Positions 9,528 through 50,693 of a stretch of DNA of 50,693 nt are shown one piece after another. Origin of the DNA: Gammaproteobacteria bacterium (lineage in GTDB: Bacteria; Pseudomonadota; Gammaproteobacteria; Pseudomonadales; Porticoccaceae). The position numbers and the translations under genes are program-made. The first letter of the stretch is position 1, and each line of letters begins with the position of its first letter. The DNA is taken from NCBI GenBank assembly GCA_018069465.1, contig JAGPUW010000023.1, forward strand, positions 1-50,693, written 5' to 3'. The notes beneath the pieces are model-generated. The model saw nothing but the letters and a program-made list of their open reading frames with translations, was not told where the DNA came from and searched no databases.

Positions 9528-10298
9528 ATGAGTGTTCACATAGAAAAAAATGGCCCGGTAACAACGGTTATTCTCGATAGACCGGAGGCGCGCAATGCAG
9601 TTGACCGGCCAACAGCCGAAGCGCTGGCGGCAGCCTTCCGTGAATTTGATGCCGACCCGCAAGCGCGGGTCGCCGTGTTTTATGGGGCCAATGGTAACTT
9701 CTGCGCCGGGGCCGACCTCAAAGCCCTGGCTGACGAGTCGCGAAGCAACCGCATATCAGCCGAGGGTGATGGCCCTATGGGCGCGAGTCGCATGCTGCTG
9801 TCCAAGCCTGTTATTGGCGCGATTTCCGGTTACGCCGTGGCTGGTGGTCTGGAGTTGGCATTGTGGTGTGACATGCGCATTGTTGAAGAGGATGCTATTT
9901 TCGGCGTTTTTTGCCGGCGCTGGGGCGTGCCGCTAATTGATGGCGGCACCGTGCGCCTGCCGCGAATTATTGGCTTTGGCCGCGCCATGGATCTAATCCT
10001 CAGTGGCCGTCCCGTCGCTGCGCAGGAAGCCTATTTGATGGGCCTGGCCAATCGCGTTGTCGCCGTGGGTACGGCTCGCAAAGAGGCGGAGACTCTGGCT
10101 CATGAGCTTGCCCAATTCCCCCAGCACTGCCTGCGCAATGATCGCCTCTCCCTGTATGAAAAAGAGGGGCTGACATTGGAGGCTGCTCTGCAAAATGAGT
10201 TTGCGCGCAGTGTCGAGTCGTTAAACGTTGATGGCTTTAAGGGAGCGGCGCAGTTTGCAGAGGGTAAGGGCCGCCATGGTGCATTTGATAAGAGTTGA
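9528..10298 (+). CDS. Crotonase-family protein (enoyl-CoA hydratase/isomerase-like)
   Basis: A 256-residue crotonase fold. The oxyanion-hole segment NFCAGADLKALAD and GYAVAGGLELALWCDM carry the first catalytic Glu. At the place of the second Glu (FGQPEI in classical hydratases) this protein has FGVFCRRWGVPLIDGGTVRLP, so the residue is replaced. It belongs to a crotonase subgroup whose reaction is not secure, and simple hydration should not be assumed. The ATG at 9528 follows AGAGG. It stands alone between divergent cinA and the convergent LLM gene, but belongs by theme to the acyl-CoA genes downstream. Confidence 0.88.
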   Translation: MSVHIEKNGPVTTVILDRPEARNAVDRPTAEALAAAFREFDADPQARVAVFYGANGNFCAGADLKALADESRSNRISAEGDGPMGASRMLLSKPVIGAISGYAVAGGLELALWCDMRIVEEDAIFGVFCRRWGVPLIDGGTVRLPRIIGFGRAMDLILSGRPVAAQEAYLMGLANRVVAVGTARKEAETLAHELAQFPQHCLRNDRLSLYEKEGLTLEAALQNEFARSVESLNVDGFKGAAQFAEGKGRHGAFDKS

Positions 10299-10459
10299 AA
10301 CAGCTGATTTATTGGGTCTTGTCATACGAGAAGGGGGGTGGAAATCGGTAGATTATCAGTTGAGCTTTCCAGGTTGACCAAAGTACCGGGTTGAGCAGCG
10401 ATTCCATCACGCCGCAGTTACAGGTTTATCTTCAGCGGTCTTCAGTACATCTCAAAAAA

Positions 10460-10495
10460 ATGCCCGGATTGAAGCCATCCGGGCATTGGTTTTTG
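10460..10495. terminator. Bidirectional intrinsic terminator
   Basis: Stem ATGCCCGGAT (10460-10469) with ATCCGGGCAT (10477-10486), loop of seven, flanked by an A run on the left and a T run on the right. It serves the convergent crotonase and LLM oxidoreductase genes. Confidence 0.85.
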
Positions 10496-10503
10496 TAACG
10501 AGA

Positions 10504-11547
10504 TTATTTGCAACGCCGTTTAAGTTCGGGCATCACCTCTTTAGCAAATAGCTCAATACTATTGCGGGTGCGCTTGGGGTCAGCCCCCGGCATCGACATC
10601 ATCAAGGATAAATGTGTGCCCGGTGACTCCTCGTGGGCGGCTACCAGTTCTTCCAATACACTTTCGGGGTCACCAATGATGGCGGTGCGGCCAAAGCTTT
10701 CACAATATTGGCTGGCCCTAAGTTCATCGGGTGAGGGTATTTTTGCTTCCGCTATGCCGTCGCCAGTGTTGTCACCAGACTCTTCCGCCCAAGCTTGATA
10801 CTGACTCATAATATGGTGCAAGGGCTGGGCGCAATCATCCCAGGCCTGGTCTTTGGTCTCTGCCACATAGCACATCAGTAGATGACCAATATTAAAATCC
10901 TTTGGATCACGGCCATGACGTTTAAGGGCTTCGATATATTTGAGTCGGTGTTCAACCGCGCCGATGGCCGCTAAATGACAACCCAGGCGAGCAGCACGAT
11001 CCAGAGCCTTATCACCACGGGCACCCACCCAAATTGGTAGCGGACTTTGAACCGGCGGCGGGACAATCTGCGCATCGGTGTATTGGTTAAACTTGCCATC
11101 AAGTGTGACTTTCTCGCCGGCGAGCAATGACTGCACCACCGGGAGCCCTTCGGCAAAGCGCGCTGCTCGTTCACTAGAGGGAATTCCCATGCCAGTAAAT
11201 TCACCGGGGCGATAACCCAGGCCCATTCCCAGATCAAAACGACCGTTCGATATCACATCCACCGTGGCTACATCTTCAGCCACGCGAATTGGGTTGTGAA
11301 GCGGCAACAACATGACATAGCTGCCGATGCGAATGCGTGAGGTGCGCGCAGCAATGGCTGCTGCGATAGGCATCAGTGAGGGCGAATAACCGTCTTCGAC
11401 AAAATGATGCTCAGTGAGCCATACGTGGTCGTAGCCTAATGCCTCTAAGGCGACCGCGTGATCGAGTTCCCGCTGATAAATATCATGCCAACTTGAGCGA
11501 TTAAAGGGAGGGTTACGAAACATAAAAATAATGCCGACATCAAGCAT
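10504..11547 (-). CDS. LLM class flavin-dependent oxidoreductase (luciferase-like)
   Basis: A 347-residue protein of the bacterial luciferase-like superfamily (TIM barrel, FMN or F420). Visible are LEALGYDHVWLTEHHFVEDG, RTSRIRIGSYVMLLPLHNP, VAEDVATVDVISNGRFDLG and GLGYRPGEF. The phosphate-binding PIWVGARGDKALDRAARLG is also present. I chose the ATG at 11547, which has AAAGGAGT upstream. An upstream in-frame start would add 29 unrelated residues. Substrate is unknown; relatives act as monooxygenases on aliphatic or polycyclic substrates. Its neighbours suggest a role in lipid or steroid-like catabolism. Confidence 0.9.
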   Translation of the reverse strand: MLDVGIIFMFRNPPFNRSSWHDIYQRELDHAVALEALGYDHVWLTEHHFVEDGYSPSLMPIAAAIAARTSRIRIGSYVMLLPLHNPIRVAEDVATVDVISNGRFDLGMGLGYRPGEFTGMGIPSSERAARFAEGLPVVQSLLAGEKVTLDGKFNQYTDAQIVPPPVQSPLPIWVGARGDKALDRAARLGCHLAAIGAVEHRLKYIEALKRHGRDPKDFNIGHLLMCYVAETKDQAWDDCAQPLHHIMSQYQAWAEESGDNTGDGIAEAKIPSPDELRASQYCESFGRTAIIGDPESVLEELVAAHEESPGTHLSLMMSMPGADPKRTRNSIELFAKEVMPELKRRCK

Positions 11548-11729
11548 GATCCCACTCCTTTTTATTATAAGTGCAGAATACGTTAAACCTCTGGAAACAT
11601 TATTACAAGGGTCACGGCAGAACGCCGCACGCACATACGGCGATCAAAGGGGTCAGCAGTTGAGTATGAATTTATTGATGTTGGAGCAGGAGGCAGTGTA
11701 GAGAATTCGCTTAATTTTAAGTTCTGTAC

Positions 11730-12068
11730 TTAATGGCTCTGCCCAGGCTTCAGACTGTAAAACCCGTCCTTTAATTCACCAAATAACTCGGCAAGTTGGG
11801 GGTGGCCCGGAGGCTTATCACTATCATCGACAAGCAAGTTTTGCTCGGAGACATAGGCTTCGTAATAGGATTCGGCATTTTCCGCTAGCAGGTAGTAGAA
11901 GGGCTGGTCGCGTTTGGGTCGCACGTTTTCGGGTATTGCCGCTAACCATTCTTCTGTATTGGCGAAGGTGGGGTCGACATCAAAAACCACCCCTCGAAAG
12001 GGGTGAAGTCTGTGTTTTACCACCTGACCAATTTGGAACTTGGCGCTGCGTTGGAGTGTGTCGGGCAT
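11730..12068 (-). CDS. hspQ: Heat shock protein HspQ (hemimethylated-DNA-binding/YccV family)
   Basis: A 112-residue small protein with the HspQ core: FQIGQVVKHRLHPFRGVVFDV, then WLAAIPENVRPKRDQPFYYLL, NAESYYEAYVSEQNLL, and C-terminal LFGELKDGFYSL. In enterobacteria HspQ is a heat-induced factor that binds DnaA and acts as a Lon specificity-enhancing factor. Length is normal. It follows the SDR at 12156 with an 87-base gap. It appears functionally unrelated to the surrounding catabolic genes. Confidence 0.94.
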   Translation of the reverse strand: MPDTLQRSAKFQIGQVVKHRLHPFRGVVFDVDPTFANTEEWLAAIPENVRPKRDQPFYYLLAENAESYYEAYVSEQNLLVDDSDKPPGHPQLAELFGELKDGFYSLKPGQSH

Positions 12069-18757: not shown

Positions 18758-20671
18758 ATGAAGTTAAGGATAAGTAATATTACGTTGAAGAACTTCAAAA
18801 ATTTTGAGGCTATTTCAATACATCCAAATCCGGATTTTAATATCATCATCGGTGAAAATAGTTCAGGAAAATCCACAATTTTTGAGGCGATTCACCTTTG
18901 GGAAAAGTGTTATCAGACCTATATCCTTGGATCAAGGAAAGGTTTTTATAAGGTAAAAAAGACTACTAACAGATACGTCAATTATCAAGACCTAGATTTT
19001 TTAAGAATCACAAAAGATGAAGACTTATTCCATAACCCTAAAGACCCTAATCTTGGTAAATGTGCTGAAATCACTATTGCGCTAACAAATGATGATGAAA
19101 ATGCGGAGACATGGGATCTGGGCTTTAAGGTTACTTGTCCCACCTCTATAGAAAATGCTTTTTTTCGAGTGAGGCCAATAGACGAGGAACAATTTACCGC
19201 CTTTGCGGAAACGTTTTGTAATGCTGGAAAATTTTTAGATGAAGCTATTTTTATTTACCAGACACGTCCAGTTTCAGGTGTTCATCAGTATGAACCATAT
19301 TATAATGAAGCGCAGATTAAGAAAAAGATACAAAAAGGCTCGTCTCACGAAGTATTGAGAAATAAAATAATCTCTAAGAGAAAGGCGATTACGGAGTTGG
19401 AAGTAAGTATTTCAGAGATAGTCGAAAAGGCGGTTAAGTTTACCCTTCCAGCTACTACCAGACGGGATAAGGATGAGTATGTTCGTCTTGATGTTTCTAT
19501 TGATGGTTCTAAGCCATACGATCTGCATTTGCAAGGTAGCGGACTCTTACAAATTATTGAGATACTGGCGACTGTAGAATTTATTGATGCCCCTTTAAAG
19601 CTGTTGCTGGTTGATGAACCTGATTCACATATTCACTCAAAGTTACAAAAAAATTTGTTGTCTCATCTTAGAAAGATTGATCATAATCAATTTTTTGTAA
19701 TTAGTCACAATGATCAATTTGTAACGAATGCTGGTGAAGGTGAAGTTTTCTTCTTAAGTGATAGCACCAAGCAATCCGGTGTTCTAGAACCTATCGATGC
19801 TAGTGGTTTTGATATCATCAAGAATTCGCTTGGCGGCGTGATATTATCACTAGAGCGTTTAAATCAGGCTAAGCACATAGTCTTCGTCGAAGGTAATGAT
19901 GATGCGGATTACCTGCATAAACTTAATAGAAAAATAAAGGATATTTGCCCTGTTCAGGGATGTCTAACGGAGGCGACTTTCTTCCCGCTAAGAGGTAAGG
20001 ACAATATTGTTCAGAAAATAGAATATAACAGTAGAACCCTATCTTCTTTGTTAAAAGAAAAAATATGGAATGCTATTTTCGATAAAGATTTTTCAACCAC
20101 TGAGATTGATGAGCATCTTAAATATTTGATCAGGGGAAAAAGCTGTACGCCACATAGTCATGAAGGGTATTGTATAGAATCGGTTGTTTTTTCAGATAAT
20201 GACATTCTGAAAAAATATTTGTGTTCTCTCGTCGATCACTTGCCGAATGCCGAAACAGGCGGATACATTGATGAGATTTTAGGTCAGATAAAAGCTGATA
20301 TTCGAGATATTGACACTCCGCTTAACAAAGAAGTTGAGATACGTTTCAACGGACAGAAAAAGAATAGACCTGAATTTGAAACCCTACAGTTTGCTGATGT
20401 AATGCGATCATGGTCAGTTGATGGAGTCTTTCAACCAGCACGAGTAATGTCTAAACCCTTGATTAGGGATTTTGTTACTACGCTGGAGTCGAAAGTTCAA
20501 TGTTCCCTGTTTTTGAGAACATCCAACAATGATAATGAGGTTTCCTCGAAGTTGTTTTTGAACTATATCGACTTCGTCGGAACAATCGAAGACGTGATAC
20601 CTTCGTTACGAAAATTATTTATCCAGCTGGGTATTTTGGCTGCTCCTCAAGAGGATCAAAATGAAGATTAG
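18758..20671 (+). CDS. AAA ATPase fused to a TOPRIM-like nuclease domain (OLD / PARIS-like defence protein)
   Basis: A 637-residue protein. Residues 1-350 form an ABC/SMC-type ATPase: KLRISNITLKNFKNF, Walker A IIGENSSGKSTIFEAI (about 31-46), Walker B LKLLLVDEPDSHIHS and the H-loop FFVISHNDQF. From about residue 370 a second domain opens AKHIVFVEGNDDADYLHKL, with the acidic motif of TOPRIM or DUF4435 domains, and IFDKDF gives a D-x-D. OLD nucleases and the AriA/AriB (PARIS) pair share these parts and act against phage. The gene is clearly more AT-rich than its neighbours and adjoins an IS110 remnant, consistent with transfer. The exact family is not settled. Confidence 0.85.
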   Translation: MKLRISNITLKNFKNFEAISIHPNPDFNIIIGENSSGKSTIFEAIHLWEKCYQTYILGSRKGFYKVKKTTNRYVNYQDLDFLRITKDEDLFHNPKDPNLGKCAEITIALTNDDENAETWDLGFKVTCPTSIENAFFRVRPIDEEQFTAFAETFCNAGKFLDEAIFIYQTRPVSGVHQYEPYYNEAQIKKKIQKGSSHEVLRNKIISKRKAITELEVSISEIVEKAVKFTLPATTRRDKDEYVRLDVSIDGSKPYDLHLQGSGLLQIIEILATVEFIDAPLKLLLVDEPDSHIHSKLQKNLLSHLRKIDHNQFFVISHNDQFVTNAGEGEVFFLSDSTKQSGVLEPIDASGFDIIKNSLGGVILSLERLNQAKHIVFVEGNDDADYLHKLNRKIKDICPVQGCLTEATFFPLRGKDNIVQKIEYNSRTLSSLLKEKIWNAIFDKDFSTTEIDEHLKYLIRGKSCTPHSHEGYCIESVVFSDNDILKKYLCSLVDHLPNAETGGYIDEILGQIKADIRDIDTPLNKEVEIRFNGQKKNRPEFETLQFADVMRSWSVDGVFQPARVMSKPLIRDFVTTLESKVQCSLFLRTSNNDNEVSSKLFLNYIDFVGTIEDVIPSLRKLFIQLGILAAPQEDQNED

Positions 20672-46438: not shown

Positions 46439-46599
46439 TTATTGACTACTGCACTTATTTACTGGCGAACTTGTTTGCTACAAAAAGTGCATGTAAAAAT
46501 TAGCACAAGCGCTTAGCCAACAGACGCTGAATGTCAGTTGGCCGCTCGATAACAAAACCAGTGCGTAGCGCACCCCGTGTTAGAACACTCCGCAGTACT

Positions 46600-46686
46600 G
46601 CCCGGATGGTGAAATTGGTAGACACACAAGACTTAAAATCTTGCGGCTTCACGGCCGTGCCGGTTCGATTCCGGCTCCGGGCACCA
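46600..46686 (+). tRNA. tRNA-Leu (anticodon TAA)
   Basis: An 87-base class II tRNA: acceptor GCCCGGA with TCCGGGC, D arm with GAAATTGGTAGAC, anticodon loop CTTAAAA on an AAGA/TCTT stem, a long variable arm (GGCTTCACGGCC), T arm GGTTCGATTCC and an encoded CCA. tRNA-Leu genes are frequent integration sites, and an AT-rich accessory segment starts downstream. Confidence 0.97.
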
Positions 46687-46774
46687 ATAGAATCAATGAG
46701 TTATAGCAAAATACTTCCTGGGAAGTGTTTTTAACTGCATTGTATTTTTTCAGTGTAGGCGCGGTGTAGGCATT

Positions 46775-46853
46775 TGGAGTGTGGGGCTTTTAGCGGAGAG
46801 GCATATCATTGGGGGTGTGGTGGTCGTCGGTTCAAATCCGGCCGCTCCGACCA
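46775..46853 (+). pseudogene. Degenerate tRNA-Pro-like sequence (GGG in the anticodon position)
   Basis: The 3' half is a good tRNA: T arm GTCGG-TTCAAAT-CCGGC, acceptor strand CGCTCCG, A73 and CCA. The acceptor 5' strand TGGAGTG pairs with it, with two G-U pairs. The loop at 46809-46815 would read TTGGGGG, anticodon GGG, and A73 with G35/G36 fits proline. But the anticodon stem pairs poorly (TATCA with TGTGG) and the D arm GCTT/AGGC is displaced by two extra bases. A decayed tRNA-Pro or an element-borne tRNA-like sequence is the best reading. Confidence 0.5.
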
Positions 46854-46985: not shown

Positions 46986-47015
46986 TTTCGGTTTCGGTTT
47001 CGGTTTCGGTTTCAG
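46986..47015 (+). repeat. Hexanucleotide tandem repeat (TTTCGG)4 plus partial unit
   Basis: TTTCGG is repeated four times without error from 46986 to 47009, then TTTCAG. It lies in the gene-free stretch between the tRNAs and the two-gene operon. Its distance of about 300 bases from the next gene does not suggest promoter spacing control. Confidence 0.9.
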
Positions 47016-47311: not shown

Positions 47312-48157
47312 ATGGAGGTATCCGACTGTCACAAATGTGGAGCACCACAGCAGGCTTTTGAGAGAGATTGTCCTTCTTGTGGGGAGCACCTCGGTTTTCC
47401 GAATGTTCTTTTAGCAAATAGTTCGCTTGAGCTGGAAGCGCTAGAGTCTCGTTTTCAATCCTCTCTCTCGAAATGTGTAATGAATCGGAGTAGTTCTGAA
47501 TTCAGCACCTTAGTAGAGCTTATTGCTAAGACATCTCATGTGGTTGTGTCGGTGCCGGTTGACATTGCATTAAAGATTGTTACTGATCCTCTAACGCTCT
47601 ACGTGAATTATGAGAAGTTGGTTGGCGCTGGCGTTCGATCTCGAGGAAGTTTTGCAAACGATAGTCATAGAAAAATTGTAGCGGGTGCATTGTTTGGATC
47701 TTTCGGAGATCAAATTTTGTATGGGGCTTTGTCTCTTAATGGTCGCGGATTGGCAACATATGGCGATATATATTGTACTTTAAAGGGCGATAGCATCAGT
47801 AAAAGGACATCGTTCTTGGAAGAAAACTCATATGATTTTTCACAAAAGTACAAAGATGAGCAGCTCCCTAATGGGTATCGTTGTGATTGGGGGAACCGAG
47901 ATAAGTTAGTTGCAATTAAATTAGAAAGTGAGGGGCTGATAAAGAAATCGAGCGATCCGAAAAAATGGCCAAGTTTGGTGCTCAACTGTGACGGAGTTGA
48001 TCGTTCGAAAGACAAATTCGTAGAGGCCCATATTTATGGTTCTTTCAATATCTATAGTATCGATAAAATAGTCGTGTCTGAATTTATGAAAGAAAGTGTG
48101 CTAAATAAGAGCATGGCAGAGGCAATTGTTGATGCTTTTAATAATACAGCTAGTTAG
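47312..48157 (+). CDS. Zinc-ribbon protein with possible ADP-ribosyltransferase-like domain
   Basis: A 281-residue protein. Residues 6-26 are a zinc ribbon, CHKCG and CPSCG. From about residue 115 the pattern SRGSFAND, LYGALSLNGRG, ATYGDIYCTLKG, KRTSFLEENS and then FVEAHIYGSFNIYSIDKIVV recalls DUF3626-type ADP-ribosyltransferase-fold proteins. There, a YGALN..., a YG-strand, RTTF..GDS and an EAQ(V)HGP strand occur in this order. That likeness is from memory and unproven, and no enzyme should be assumed. Codon use is AT-rich and unlike the housekeeping neighbours. The TPR gene starts nine bases after its stop, so they form an operon. Confidence 0.75.
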   Translation: MEVSDCHKCGAPQQAFERDCPSCGEHLGFPNVLLANSSLELEALESRFQSSLSKCVMNRSSSEFSTLVELIAKTSHVVVSVPVDIALKIVTDPLTLYVNYEKLVGAGVRSRGSFANDSHRKIVAGALFGSFGDQILYGALSLNGRGLATYGDIYCTLKGDSISKRTSFLEENSYDFSQKYKDEQLPNGYRCDWGNRDKLVAIKLESEGLIKKSSDPKKWPSLVLNCDGVDRSKDKFVEAHIYGSFNIYSIDKIVVSEFMKESVLNKSMAEAIVDAFNNTAS

Positions 48158-48166
48158 GGCAGCATT

Positions 48167-50263
48167 ATGATAAGAGCGACGGTATCAGAAGCTATGGGAT
48201 GGTGCATTTTTGACGCTAACGATGACGGTGCAGCACAACTTTATTCTGCATTTGACATGAGTAAGCTTGATCCTATCGAGCAGCGTTACAACTTGAGTGT
48301 AATTGATGACTGGCGAATATTAGAAGTTAAGGACGCGGAGTCTGCTTTACTTGAAACGAAGAGACTGGCTAATACTGATAGGGCCATATCCCTACTCCGA
48401 CTATGTCTGATTCTCAAGAATCGAAATGAGCTGGATTGGCTTTACAGGGAGGTGGAAGAACTAATTGTGAGCTGTGCACCCTCTGAGGAATTAATTCGAG
48501 AGATGCTTGTTGCGCCTTTTGCTGATGTCGAACAACTTCGTGATAGCGCTGCTCATGCCTTATCGCGGGGTTATAACGTTGTTGGGAATGTTTTTAATGA
48601 GCTACATGGTTATCAGCCCCATATTAAACGTTTGTCAAATGCCTGGTTAAGGTTACCCATCAGTATATTTTTAAGCCTAGGTGCCTCTAAAGAAACTCTG
48701 TGGAGTGAGTTTGTAAAAAATGGACTTATTGTCAAGCTGTTGAATGCTACCGATAACCACGGGGTTAAACGTCTCTTTGGAGCGATGGCTTTTGAAAAAA
48801 CCTCGCCGCAAGAACGTGTTGGCGTTACTGCGCTTGGTGCTGCTATCTGTACTGAATTATTTGGTAACGGTGATTCTAAGTCAGTTTTGGCAGCGGAAAT
48901 ATTTAATGATGACTCGCCATCTGAAGAAGATAGCAGCGACAGAATTCAAGTCGATAGTCAGGCAGAGTTCCAAAGGGCGCTGTTAGAAATCGAAGGGATA
49001 AAAAATGCGCTACTGCGAGGAGATGATTTCCATGCAAATAAATACTTAGCAGAACTTGCTGAAAGACAAATAAAGTATGGCTCCGAGTTTGCGCAAAAAT
49101 CACTTTGTAATATAGCGAAGAAATGCTCAGAGATGTATAGGCTTGATTTTGAGTTGGTTTGCTTAGAAAAATCTTATTTGATCGATAAAAACGATCCATG
49201 GACGTTGCTGCAATTCGCCGATTATTACAAAAGAACCAGACTTTATAATGAAGCTGAAGACATGGCGAAGGAGGCCTTGGGGACACCTCATGACCTTGTG
49301 GCTAGATGTTTGATTGCTGATATTTATTCTAAAAAGGGAAATTGCGCGAAAGCTATTCAGGAATACAAAACAATTCCAGGGTGGGAGGAGATAGTAATTG
49401 TTAGGACAGCTATCGCGGATAACTTGAGATGGTTAGGGCGATATGATGAAGCTTTACAAGAGTATGATCTTATTGATCATCAGGGATTTGGTTCTTATAG
49501 GGTGCAAGCTGGACGTGCAGAAATCGCGCGGAGGCAAGGGGAATTACAAAACTCCCTAGAGCTCTACAAAGATATTATCGGGTTTAATAATATTGATGAA
49601 CATTCATTACTTGTTTATAAGACAGCGTATGCTTCTATTTTAAAGCAGGTTGGAGAATATCAAGATGCTCTTATAATGGCAGAGGACGTCATTGAACAAT
49701 CACCTTTTATGATTGGGACACGAGTTCTACGATCTTCTTTATTGGGGTTGCTTGACGAAGGGGTTATAGGTTTAGAGTTACTCCCAGGAAATCCAGAAAA
49801 CTTAGGTAACTCGACTTATGATAGTTGGCTTAGAGACTATACGAGAGGCGTTCTTTTATTAAAGACGAATAAGTACGCAGAGGCTAAAGAGTCACTCCTG
49901 CGGAATTTGTCTGCATCAAGTATTAATACGGAAGAAAAGGAAATATTACGATTAGCCTCTGCTGTGTCATGTTTAATGCCGGACATTGATAAACCAATTG
50001 AAGCAAAGGATCTACTATCTCAAATAACTGGCCCTTGTGACGCCTACATAACTTATTTAAAGCTTGTTCTTGATTATCACGTATCAGTTATAGAAAAGGA
50101 TAAGCTGGAATCAGCGCGCCTACTCTCCGAGCTGAATATGCGCAGGGCAGACAATCTTGTATTTCTATGGGAAGCAGTGGAAGCTCTCTCAGATAATAGA
50201 ATATCGGAGGCTCTAGATATAGAGGTCGAAAGCCTTCTACGATGGGGAGCTATTGCTGCTTAA
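48167..50263 (+). CDS. Large TPR-repeat protein, operon partner of the zinc-ribbon protein
   Basis: A 698-residue soluble, mostly helical protein. Residues 1-260 have no repeats I recognise (start IRATVSEAMGWCIFDANDDG; then SLLRLCLILKNRNELDWLY). Residues 245-265 are acidic and low complexity (DDSPSEEDSSD). From about 345 to 560 tetratricopeptide repeats follow: WTLLQFADYYKRTRLYNEAE, CLIADIYSKKGNCAKAIQEY, AIADNLRWLGRYDEALQEYD and AYASILKQVGEYQDALIMAE. No signal peptide or membrane helix is seen. TPR proteins of this sort serve as scaffolds or sensors beside toxins and enzymes. Function unknown. Confidence 0.8.
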   Translation: MIRATVSEAMGWCIFDANDDGAAQLYSAFDMSKLDPIEQRYNLSVIDDWRILEVKDAESALLETKRLANTDRAISLLRLCLILKNRNELDWLYREVEELIVSCAPSEELIREMLVAPFADVEQLRDSAAHALSRGYNVVGNVFNELHGYQPHIKRLSNAWLRLPISIFLSLGASKETLWSEFVKNGLIVKLLNATDNHGVKRLFGAMAFEKTSPQERVGVTALGAAICTELFGNGDSKSVLAAEIFNDDSPSEEDSSDRIQVDSQAEFQRALLEIEGIKNALLRGDDFHANKYLAELAERQIKYGSEFAQKSLCNIAKKCSEMYRLDFELVCLEKSYLIDKNDPWTLLQFADYYKRTRLYNEAEDMAKEALGTPHDLVARCLIADIYSKKGNCAKAIQEYKTIPGWEEIVIVRTAIADNLRWLGRYDEALQEYDLIDHQGFGSYRVQAGRAEIARRQGELQNSLELYKDIIGFNNIDEHSLLVYKTAYASILKQVGEYQDALIMAEDVIEQSPFMIGTRVLRSSLLGLLDEGVIGLELLPGNPENLGNSTYDSWLRDYTRGVLLLKTNKYAEAKESLLRNLSASSINTEEKEILRLASAVSCLMPDIDKPIEAKDLLSQITGPCDAYITYLKLVLDYHVSVIEKDKLESARLLSELNMRRADNLVFLWEAVEALSDNRISEALDIEVESLLRWGAIAA

Positions 50264-50275
50264 CGGTTTATGAAT

Positions 50276-50320
50276 AACCTTGAAGTAATTATGGCTACCA
50301 ATTACTTCAAGGTTGATTTT
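50276..50320 (+). terminator. Intrinsic terminator of the zinc-ribbon/TPR operon
   Basis: A perfect 15-bp stem, AACCTTGAAGTAATT (50276-50290) with AATTACTTCAAGGTT (50300-50314), nine-base loop, then GATTTT. It marks the operon end. Confidence 0.85.
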
Positions 50321-50553
50321 AAATCTACGGATATTAGGTAGTACAGTTATTGACAGAACTCCAAGGGGGCGGGTTCTGGAGGGCCAGTGTGCATATAACC
50401 TGAAGTGGGTGTTAGGGTGGAAATTCTGGGTACCATTGAGACAGTCCACGTGTGTAAGCGCGTTTTGATCTCGCAGCTAGAGGACGATAATAATCCACGG
50501 AGACGAGTGACATCTTCACCGTACTTGCCTGCTTCGGGCTCAATGAAATAATC
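50321..50553. other. Gene-free stretch between the TPR operon and the right IS66
   Basis: I see no credible gene. A leftward frame at 50347-50634 runs across the IS66 end and is not coding. GTAAGCGCG near 50456 echoes the IS66 terminus but lacks the rest of the repeat. Confidence 0.4.
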
Positions 50554-50693
50554 GTAAGCGCCAAACCAACTACAGGGTTGCAAAAACCTCAGTAATTTCC
50601 AAGCGCCAAGGCAGCAACCTTTCAATGTCGTCAACCGTCTCGACGTTGGGCAGCCGGGTGAACACTTCTTTCAGGTAATCGTAGGGATTTAAG
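50554..50693 (-). mobile_element. End of a second IS66-family element (tnpC side), continuing beyond the window
   Basis: GTAAGCGCCAAACCAACTAC starts at 50554. Over its first 21 bases it matches the terminus at 117 (read on the minus strand) at about 17 positions, as expected for the two ends of one IS66 type. The 3' end of the transposase gene lies 16 bases inside. Orientation is the same as that of the left-edge copy. Confidence 0.85.
50570..50692 (-). CDS. IS66-family transposase TnpC, C-terminal 40 residues
   Basis: The minus-strand frame ending in TAG at 50570 reads LNPYDYLKEVFTRLPNVETV, then DDIERLLPWRLEI and a short tail. The segment P-Y-x-Y-L-x-x-V-x-x-RLP followed by LLPW is the typical C-terminus of IS66 DDE transposases. 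The gene continues past the right edge. Confidence 0.9.
   Translation of the reverse strand, partial: LNPYDYLKEVFTRLPNVETVDDIERLLPWRLEITEVFATL

Follow-up and report, generated by a model that had tools for sequence, protein, structure and literature searches.

The Salmonella effector SopF is activated by ARF, and CopC, which has helical repeats of its own, is stimulated by calmodulin. To our knowledge, ADP-ribosyltransferases (ARTs) of the SopF/DUF3626 kind are known mainly from the injected effector. In DarTG, DarG carries a macrodomain, and CmdTAC, like DarTG, is reportedly an ART-based toxin-antitoxin and antiphage system. Nucleoside triphosphate (NTP)-dependent conflict systems combine variable effector domains with effector-associated domains, according to passages in two reports (PMC7159879, PMC8195603). 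Here we analyzed a stretch of 50,693 nucleotides (the window; contig JAGPUW010000023.1) from a gammaproteobacterium of the family Porticoccaceae, in which two adjacent genes encode P1, a zinc-ribbon protein with an ART fold of the SopF/DUF3626 type, and its partner protein P2. We consider it fairly probable that P1 is an ART with P2 as its obligate partner and that the two travel as two-gene conflict cargo. The pair brings with it an unnamed protein family (P1) and a partner domain, the conserved N-terminus of P2 (P2N), for which no solved relative was found.

P1 (47312..48157) encodes 281 aa and, as a preliminary description of this DNA had stated, ends nine bases (48158-48166) before P2 (48167..50263; 698 aa); both genes and all features within them lie on the plus strand. 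A CxxC...CxxC zinc ribbon spans P1 residues 6-23 (47327..47380; Zn_Ribbon_1 E 0.012, below the family's cut-off), and 31 of 35 aligned sequences, that of the window among them, retain its cysteines C6, C9, C20 and C23; one row of this alignment is L013, from a second class of relatives described below. The motifs that the preliminary description singled out in P1 proved to be conserved in the family: Y150 is present in 34/35 sequences, G151 in 35/35, N172 in 34/35, E238 in 34/34 letters and H240 in 33/34. Nearly all 35 sequences also retain W193, R196 and K203. The core motif YGALSLNGRGLATYG (residues 137-151; 47720..47764) is common to DUF3626, and E-A-H (residues 238-240; 48023..48031) contains a putative catalytic Glu with its neighboring His. 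Structure prediction gave an ART fold with an NAD cleft, in line with the ART-fold, DUF3626-like identity first proposed, and E238 opens the late strand 238-242, a position that fits the ART catalytic Glu; we infer that E238 is equivalent to the SopF/OspC Glu. Moreover, profile-profile comparison of the P1 family with DUF3626 gave E values of 1.1e-6, 1.7e-7 and 8.1e-8, against 0.44 and 0.33 for controls. P1 is a SopF/DUF3626-type ART-fold protein, which differs from SopF (PDB 7dn8/7dn9) by its N-terminal zinc ribbon.

P2N (residues about 1-235; 48167..48871) has a beta start followed by helices, and its structure model is confident over most of this span. The N-terminus of P2 is indeed unfamiliar: a Pfam search to E 1 gave no match within its first 318 residues, and P2N had no match in the PDB (best E 1.0). 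The tetratricopeptide repeat (TPR) content claimed for P2 was found at residues about 344-577 (49196..49897; TPR_12 E 2.4e-9, 37.7 bits vs a cut-off of 30.1). Beyond P2N, the partners vary. Twenty of the 33 partner genes contain TPR_2 (E <= 0.001); at L027 and L040 the TPR part seemingly lies, by eye, in the following open reading frame (ORF), several partners have short tails without an assigned family, and some are cut by contig ends. In the copy on a Rhizobium plasmid (L016, 10830-12359), the reading frame of P2N continues into a complete ribosomal protein S2 (Pfam E 1.4e-96), which is 83-85% identical to the S2 proteins that the plasmid collection holds from other Rhizobiaceae. The gene table of that record lists the S2 part only, as rpsB.

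At all 33 loci that continue past P1 (the window and 32 others), the next gene on the same strand belongs to one cluster, as defined by single-linkage BLAST on the first 300 residues at E <= 1e-3; L038 and L041, which end just after P1, and the second-class L013 lie outside this count. In 24 of the 32 relatives the two genes overlap, and in 30 no more than 39 nt separate them, with starts chosen mechanically; the P1 frame stops early in L029 and the partner ORF starts late in L048. Because related pairs recur elsewhere, the adjacency of P1 and P2 is more than chance. An operon partner in every informative locus sets P1 apart from SopF and DUF3626 proteins; in the two DUF3626 surroundings compared (L055 and L056), the annotation names no TPR or P2-like product beside the gene.

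The pair is patchily distributed. In the genomes sampled, P1 relatives occur in 6/398 of the phylum and 3/369 of the class, the window's own genome included in each and one of the other two in the class being a weak fragment, and in 2/190 of the class of genome G187, one of them a zinc-ribbon-only match. The own genome has one match; the six other same-genus and 30 other same-family genomes have none, and one of 21 same-order genomes carries a relative (L017) that is 25% identical to the window P1. The GTDB contig collection, which holds no contigs under 3 kb, yielded 29 loci, all metagenome-assembled genomes by title, the titles naming Magnetococcales, Planctomycetota, Zixibacteriota, Acidobacteriota, Geobacteraceae, Nitrospirae, Nitrospina, Ignavibacteriaceae, Elusimicrobia, Methylococcaceae, Thiotrichaceae, an actinobacterium and others; one more copy is that of the Rhizobium plasmid. 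L009, L010 and L012, whose contigs equal those of L020, L021 and L025 in length, are counted once with them. Among 27 copies compared, the window P1 is nearest (40% identity) to those on Elusimicrobia and Planctomycetaceae contigs. At the 30 loci where the flanks are long enough for comparison, L013 counted as one, the pair has a lower GC content than its surroundings in 28, and by more than 3 points in 22. In the window, GC and third-position GC (GC3) are 0.411 and 0.365 for P1 and 0.414 and 0.352 for P2, compared with a GC3 of 0.601-0.682 in 17 of 18 other measured genes, which bears out the AT-rich codon use noted earlier. Both genes were apparently transferred horizontally. A conserved zinc-ribbon enzyme with a dedicated partner across many phyla would give SopF/DUF3626-kind chemistry a bacterial setting.

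The site of the pair is variable. ARAGORN places tRNA-Leu(taa) at 46600..46686 (plus strand), the left anchor of the site, and a tRNA-like pseudogene with a CCA end at 46760..46853 (plus strand; called tRNA-???), in agreement with the position first described; the latter has a diverged counterpart in the same-genus genome G401. Upstream runs uvrC-pgsA-tRNA-Cys-tRNA-Leu(taa), the protein genes named by eye. All nine relatives inspected, six from the genus and three from the family, retain tRNA-Cys and tRNA-Leu, and the genes behind them differ. Window positions 46549-46780 and 50485-50546 have their matches in G398 at a distance of 36 bases from each other, so that G398 approximates an empty site. 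By eye and without a family call, the site holds Fic-like proteins in G398 and in G400, the latter with HipA- and RelE-like proteins as well; in G401 its cargo is a small gene and a large one, and in G403, G399 and G402 the part read shows no evident conflict gene. A double motif, TGTAGGC...GTGTAGGC, stands behind tRNA-Leu at 46752-46780 and is common to the window, G401 and G398; it is a possible integrase site. By eye, the same double motif follows tRNA-Leu at L049, in a genome of another family, where a distant pair (10152-11985) lies about 210 bp behind tRNA-Gly-Cys-Leu(taa), this tRNA-Leu(taa) being the same as that of the window. A general linkage to tRNAs, a recurrence that the preliminary description had raised, is not supported: of 42 other loci scanned, only L049 and L038 (about 750 bp) place a tRNA no more than 1 kb ahead of P1.

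In the reading that we favor, P1 would act inside the cell as a mono-ADP-ribosyltransferase of the SopF/DUF3626 clade that carries a zinc ribbon of its own. P2 would be its obligate partner, in which P2N may bind P1, silencing, activating or positioning it, while the C-terminal part (TPR in the window) may recognize the target or trigger. OspC3 and CopC have ankyrin repeats in cis, whereas the TPR helical repeats here are on the separate P2; the helper of the ART would be encoded next door, with TPRs supplying control or aim in trans. Traveling as a two-gene cargo, the pair would most likely act in phage exclusion or in a stress or toxin response, through modification of a macromolecule of the host or the invader. 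Since it recurs in distant bacteria and matches no named family model, the pair probably represents a conflict or stress module that has not been described. Fold, family, pairing, co-inheritance and patchy presence at a variable site, all established computationally, support the original reading of a modifying effector with a partner, whereas catalysis, the P1-P2 complex, trigger, target and conflict role are inferred. We found no published description of the pair; for broader queries this holds among the matches listed, the subscription literature being mostly beyond reach. The locus raises the question of whether the partner switches the enzyme on, switches it off or aims it, and what is modified; its two-gene size makes it easily assayed in laboratory strains.

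Several results weigh against this proposal. PF12294, the Pfam model of DUF3626, does not match P1 at E up to 10 and has no match in the window's own genome, and DUF3626 membership in the strict Pfam sense was rejected. Neither did the P1 profile find SopF among PDB sequences, and PADLOC models matched P1 and P2 with 0 families. The P1 and P2N distance matrices of 27 pairs (L029, L037, L046, L047 and L048 dropped from 32) correlate with r 0.69, where 2000 permutations reached 0.29 at most, which is co-inheritance and no proof of contact, and the permutation test leaves in the shared ancestry of the loci. Viral contigs, searched with two patterns each from family subsets, and phage records, searched with P1 alone, contained no relative, and for this reason a role in phage conflict is proposed, not shown. 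PADLOC matched 91 families among 94 neighbor proteins, with no control set; several rows probably describe one protein, and the 25 families listed include a type II methyltransferase, a restriction enzyme, DrmD and CARF-AAA. These 94 came from 116 listed proteins of 100-1150 aa, 22, mostly short or partial, having been left out by hand. Finally, at L046 the TIR_2/DUF4062 match of the partner is weak (E 0.0016/0.0018), as is that of a ParA-like gene (E 0.0008), both below the Pfam cut-off.

A tentative elaboration, to which we give a modest chance, is that P2N serves as an exchangeable adaptor and brings one ART to different targets, while the choice of target or trigger falls to the C-terminal part: a TPR platform, the TIR/DUF4062-like domain of L046, or the captured Rhizobium S2 as bait or guide. 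DUF4062 is a TIR-like NADase family according to a preprint (PMC13174449), and the L046 partner adjoins an nSTAND1 gene (E 4.4e-95). If so, P1-P2 would perform ADP-ribosylation within bacteria as a machine that is modular and can be retargeted, and would correspond to effectors of the SopF/OspC3 type, in which the same fold is switched on and aimed by host cofactors.

The main rival to an ART with an obligate partner differs just in what P2 does to P1. In a classical toxin-antitoxin system, P1 would be a self-poisoning ART and P2 a neutralizing protein antitoxin, as in DarTG, serving element maintenance or abortive infection; we regard this as possible but rather improbable. P2 relatives reach about 600-880 aa where full length, larger than a usual antitoxin, and their C-terminus is swapped for unrelated sequence in some relatives; therefore, a sensor or targeting role fits better. 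The enzyme gene comes first in P1-P2, whereas type II toxin-antitoxin operons are usually antitoxin first. In contrast to DarTG, P2 shows no macrodomain (none among 15 Pfam families for P2 at E up to 10, nor among the 25 listed of 60 for its relatives), and P1 is closer to SopF.

It is unlikely that P1, instead of being a plain ART, is ADP-riboxanase-like and acts on arginine by the OspC3/CopC chemistry. Riboxanation needs two CopC aspartates, D172 and D230. The E-x-H motif of the OspC ADP-riboxanases is present in P1 as E238/H240, the OspC3 counterparts being E326/H328 according to a passage in PMC9239266. However, SopF is closer by VIA (13.0 vs 11.5), and DUF3626 proteins also have E-A-H or E-A-Q; therefore, the motif may be ancestral. 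OspC proteins were not listed in the PDB search with the P1 profile, where sequence likeness to OspC was examined.

Alternatively, P1-P2 might tune a cellular machine such as translation under stress, as a housekeeping or regulatory modification outside any conflict system. The Rhizobium fusion of P2N to S2 favors this, but it is a single case, and the scarcity of the pair in the phylum, its absence from all 36 other same-genus and same-family genomes and its low GC relative to the flanks make such a role doubtful. A housekeeping gene pair of the genus was rejected for want of a match in same-genus genomes, as was a pseudogene or artefact, since the ORFs are intact and have distant homologues. 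A catalytically dead ART fold for binding or scaffolding would suit a first strand without a conserved His or Arg (positions 77-80 are mostly hydrophobic or small, with a basic residue at 76 in 17/35 and Arg at 81 in 10/35), but is quite improbable, given that SopF, whose I-Y-E triad begins with Ile, is an active enzyme according to a passage in PMC10333799, and that E238, Y150, G151, N172, W193, R196 and K203 are nearly invariant, as an active site would be. In P1, the candidate positions for such a triad are the hydrophobic first strand and the conserved Y150 and E238.

As far as the passages cited above describe them, the NTP-dependent conflict systems resemble P1-P2 in having a conserved core with a variable C-terminal region and in the STAND and ParA-like genes found at some P1-P2 loci; P1 and P2N are absent from these passages, and a MoxR, vWA or GTPase core did not appear in the few neighbor genes run through Pfam. 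A second class of ART relatives, at seven loci (L090-L096) and at L013, has no zinc ribbon and is homologous to P1 with E 1.1e-14 from alignments without a shared row (a value of 3.4e-29 is inflated because both alignments share L013) and to DUF3626 with E 1.7e-5. Each of these relatives is followed by a protein of about 200 aa and a ParA-like NTPase gene; the NTPase identity was upheld in 3/3 proteins run through Pfam, of eight. In L090 the NTPase is fused to calcineurin-like (phosphoesterase), NACHT and FGE-sulfatase domains, by eye also in L013, L093 and L094; its frame looks broken in L092. Kinship of the ~200-aa protein with P2N is not demonstrable (E 0.12). In the class of G057, which includes Magnetococcales records, 9/48 genomes have relatives.

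Downstream of P2, an AT-rich palindrome (50276..50314, plus strand; repeat search) has a perfect 15-bp core (50276-50290/50300-50314). The strong private terminator proposed at first is plausible but not shown, because the palindrome is AT-rich and was not called by a terminator scan, whose total of 3 sites compares with a mean of 2.7 in shuffles. Between the tRNA-like pseudogene and P1, TTTCGG is repeated 4.7 times (46986-47013). A further AT-rich gene of the window (18758-20671; GC3 0.332; 637 aa), by eye an AAA/OLD-like ATPase flanked by acyl-CoA dehydrogenase-like and phosphodiesterase-like genes, is likely another transferred conflict gene. On the minus strand, a degraded gene end (50341..50550; BLASTN 72.6% over 212 columns to L069) belongs to a gene whose frame is open in G401 and which looks, by eye, like a rolling-circle replication gene of a filamentous phage, and a tail at 50590-50693, which reaches the contig end, resembles the end of an IS66-type transposase.
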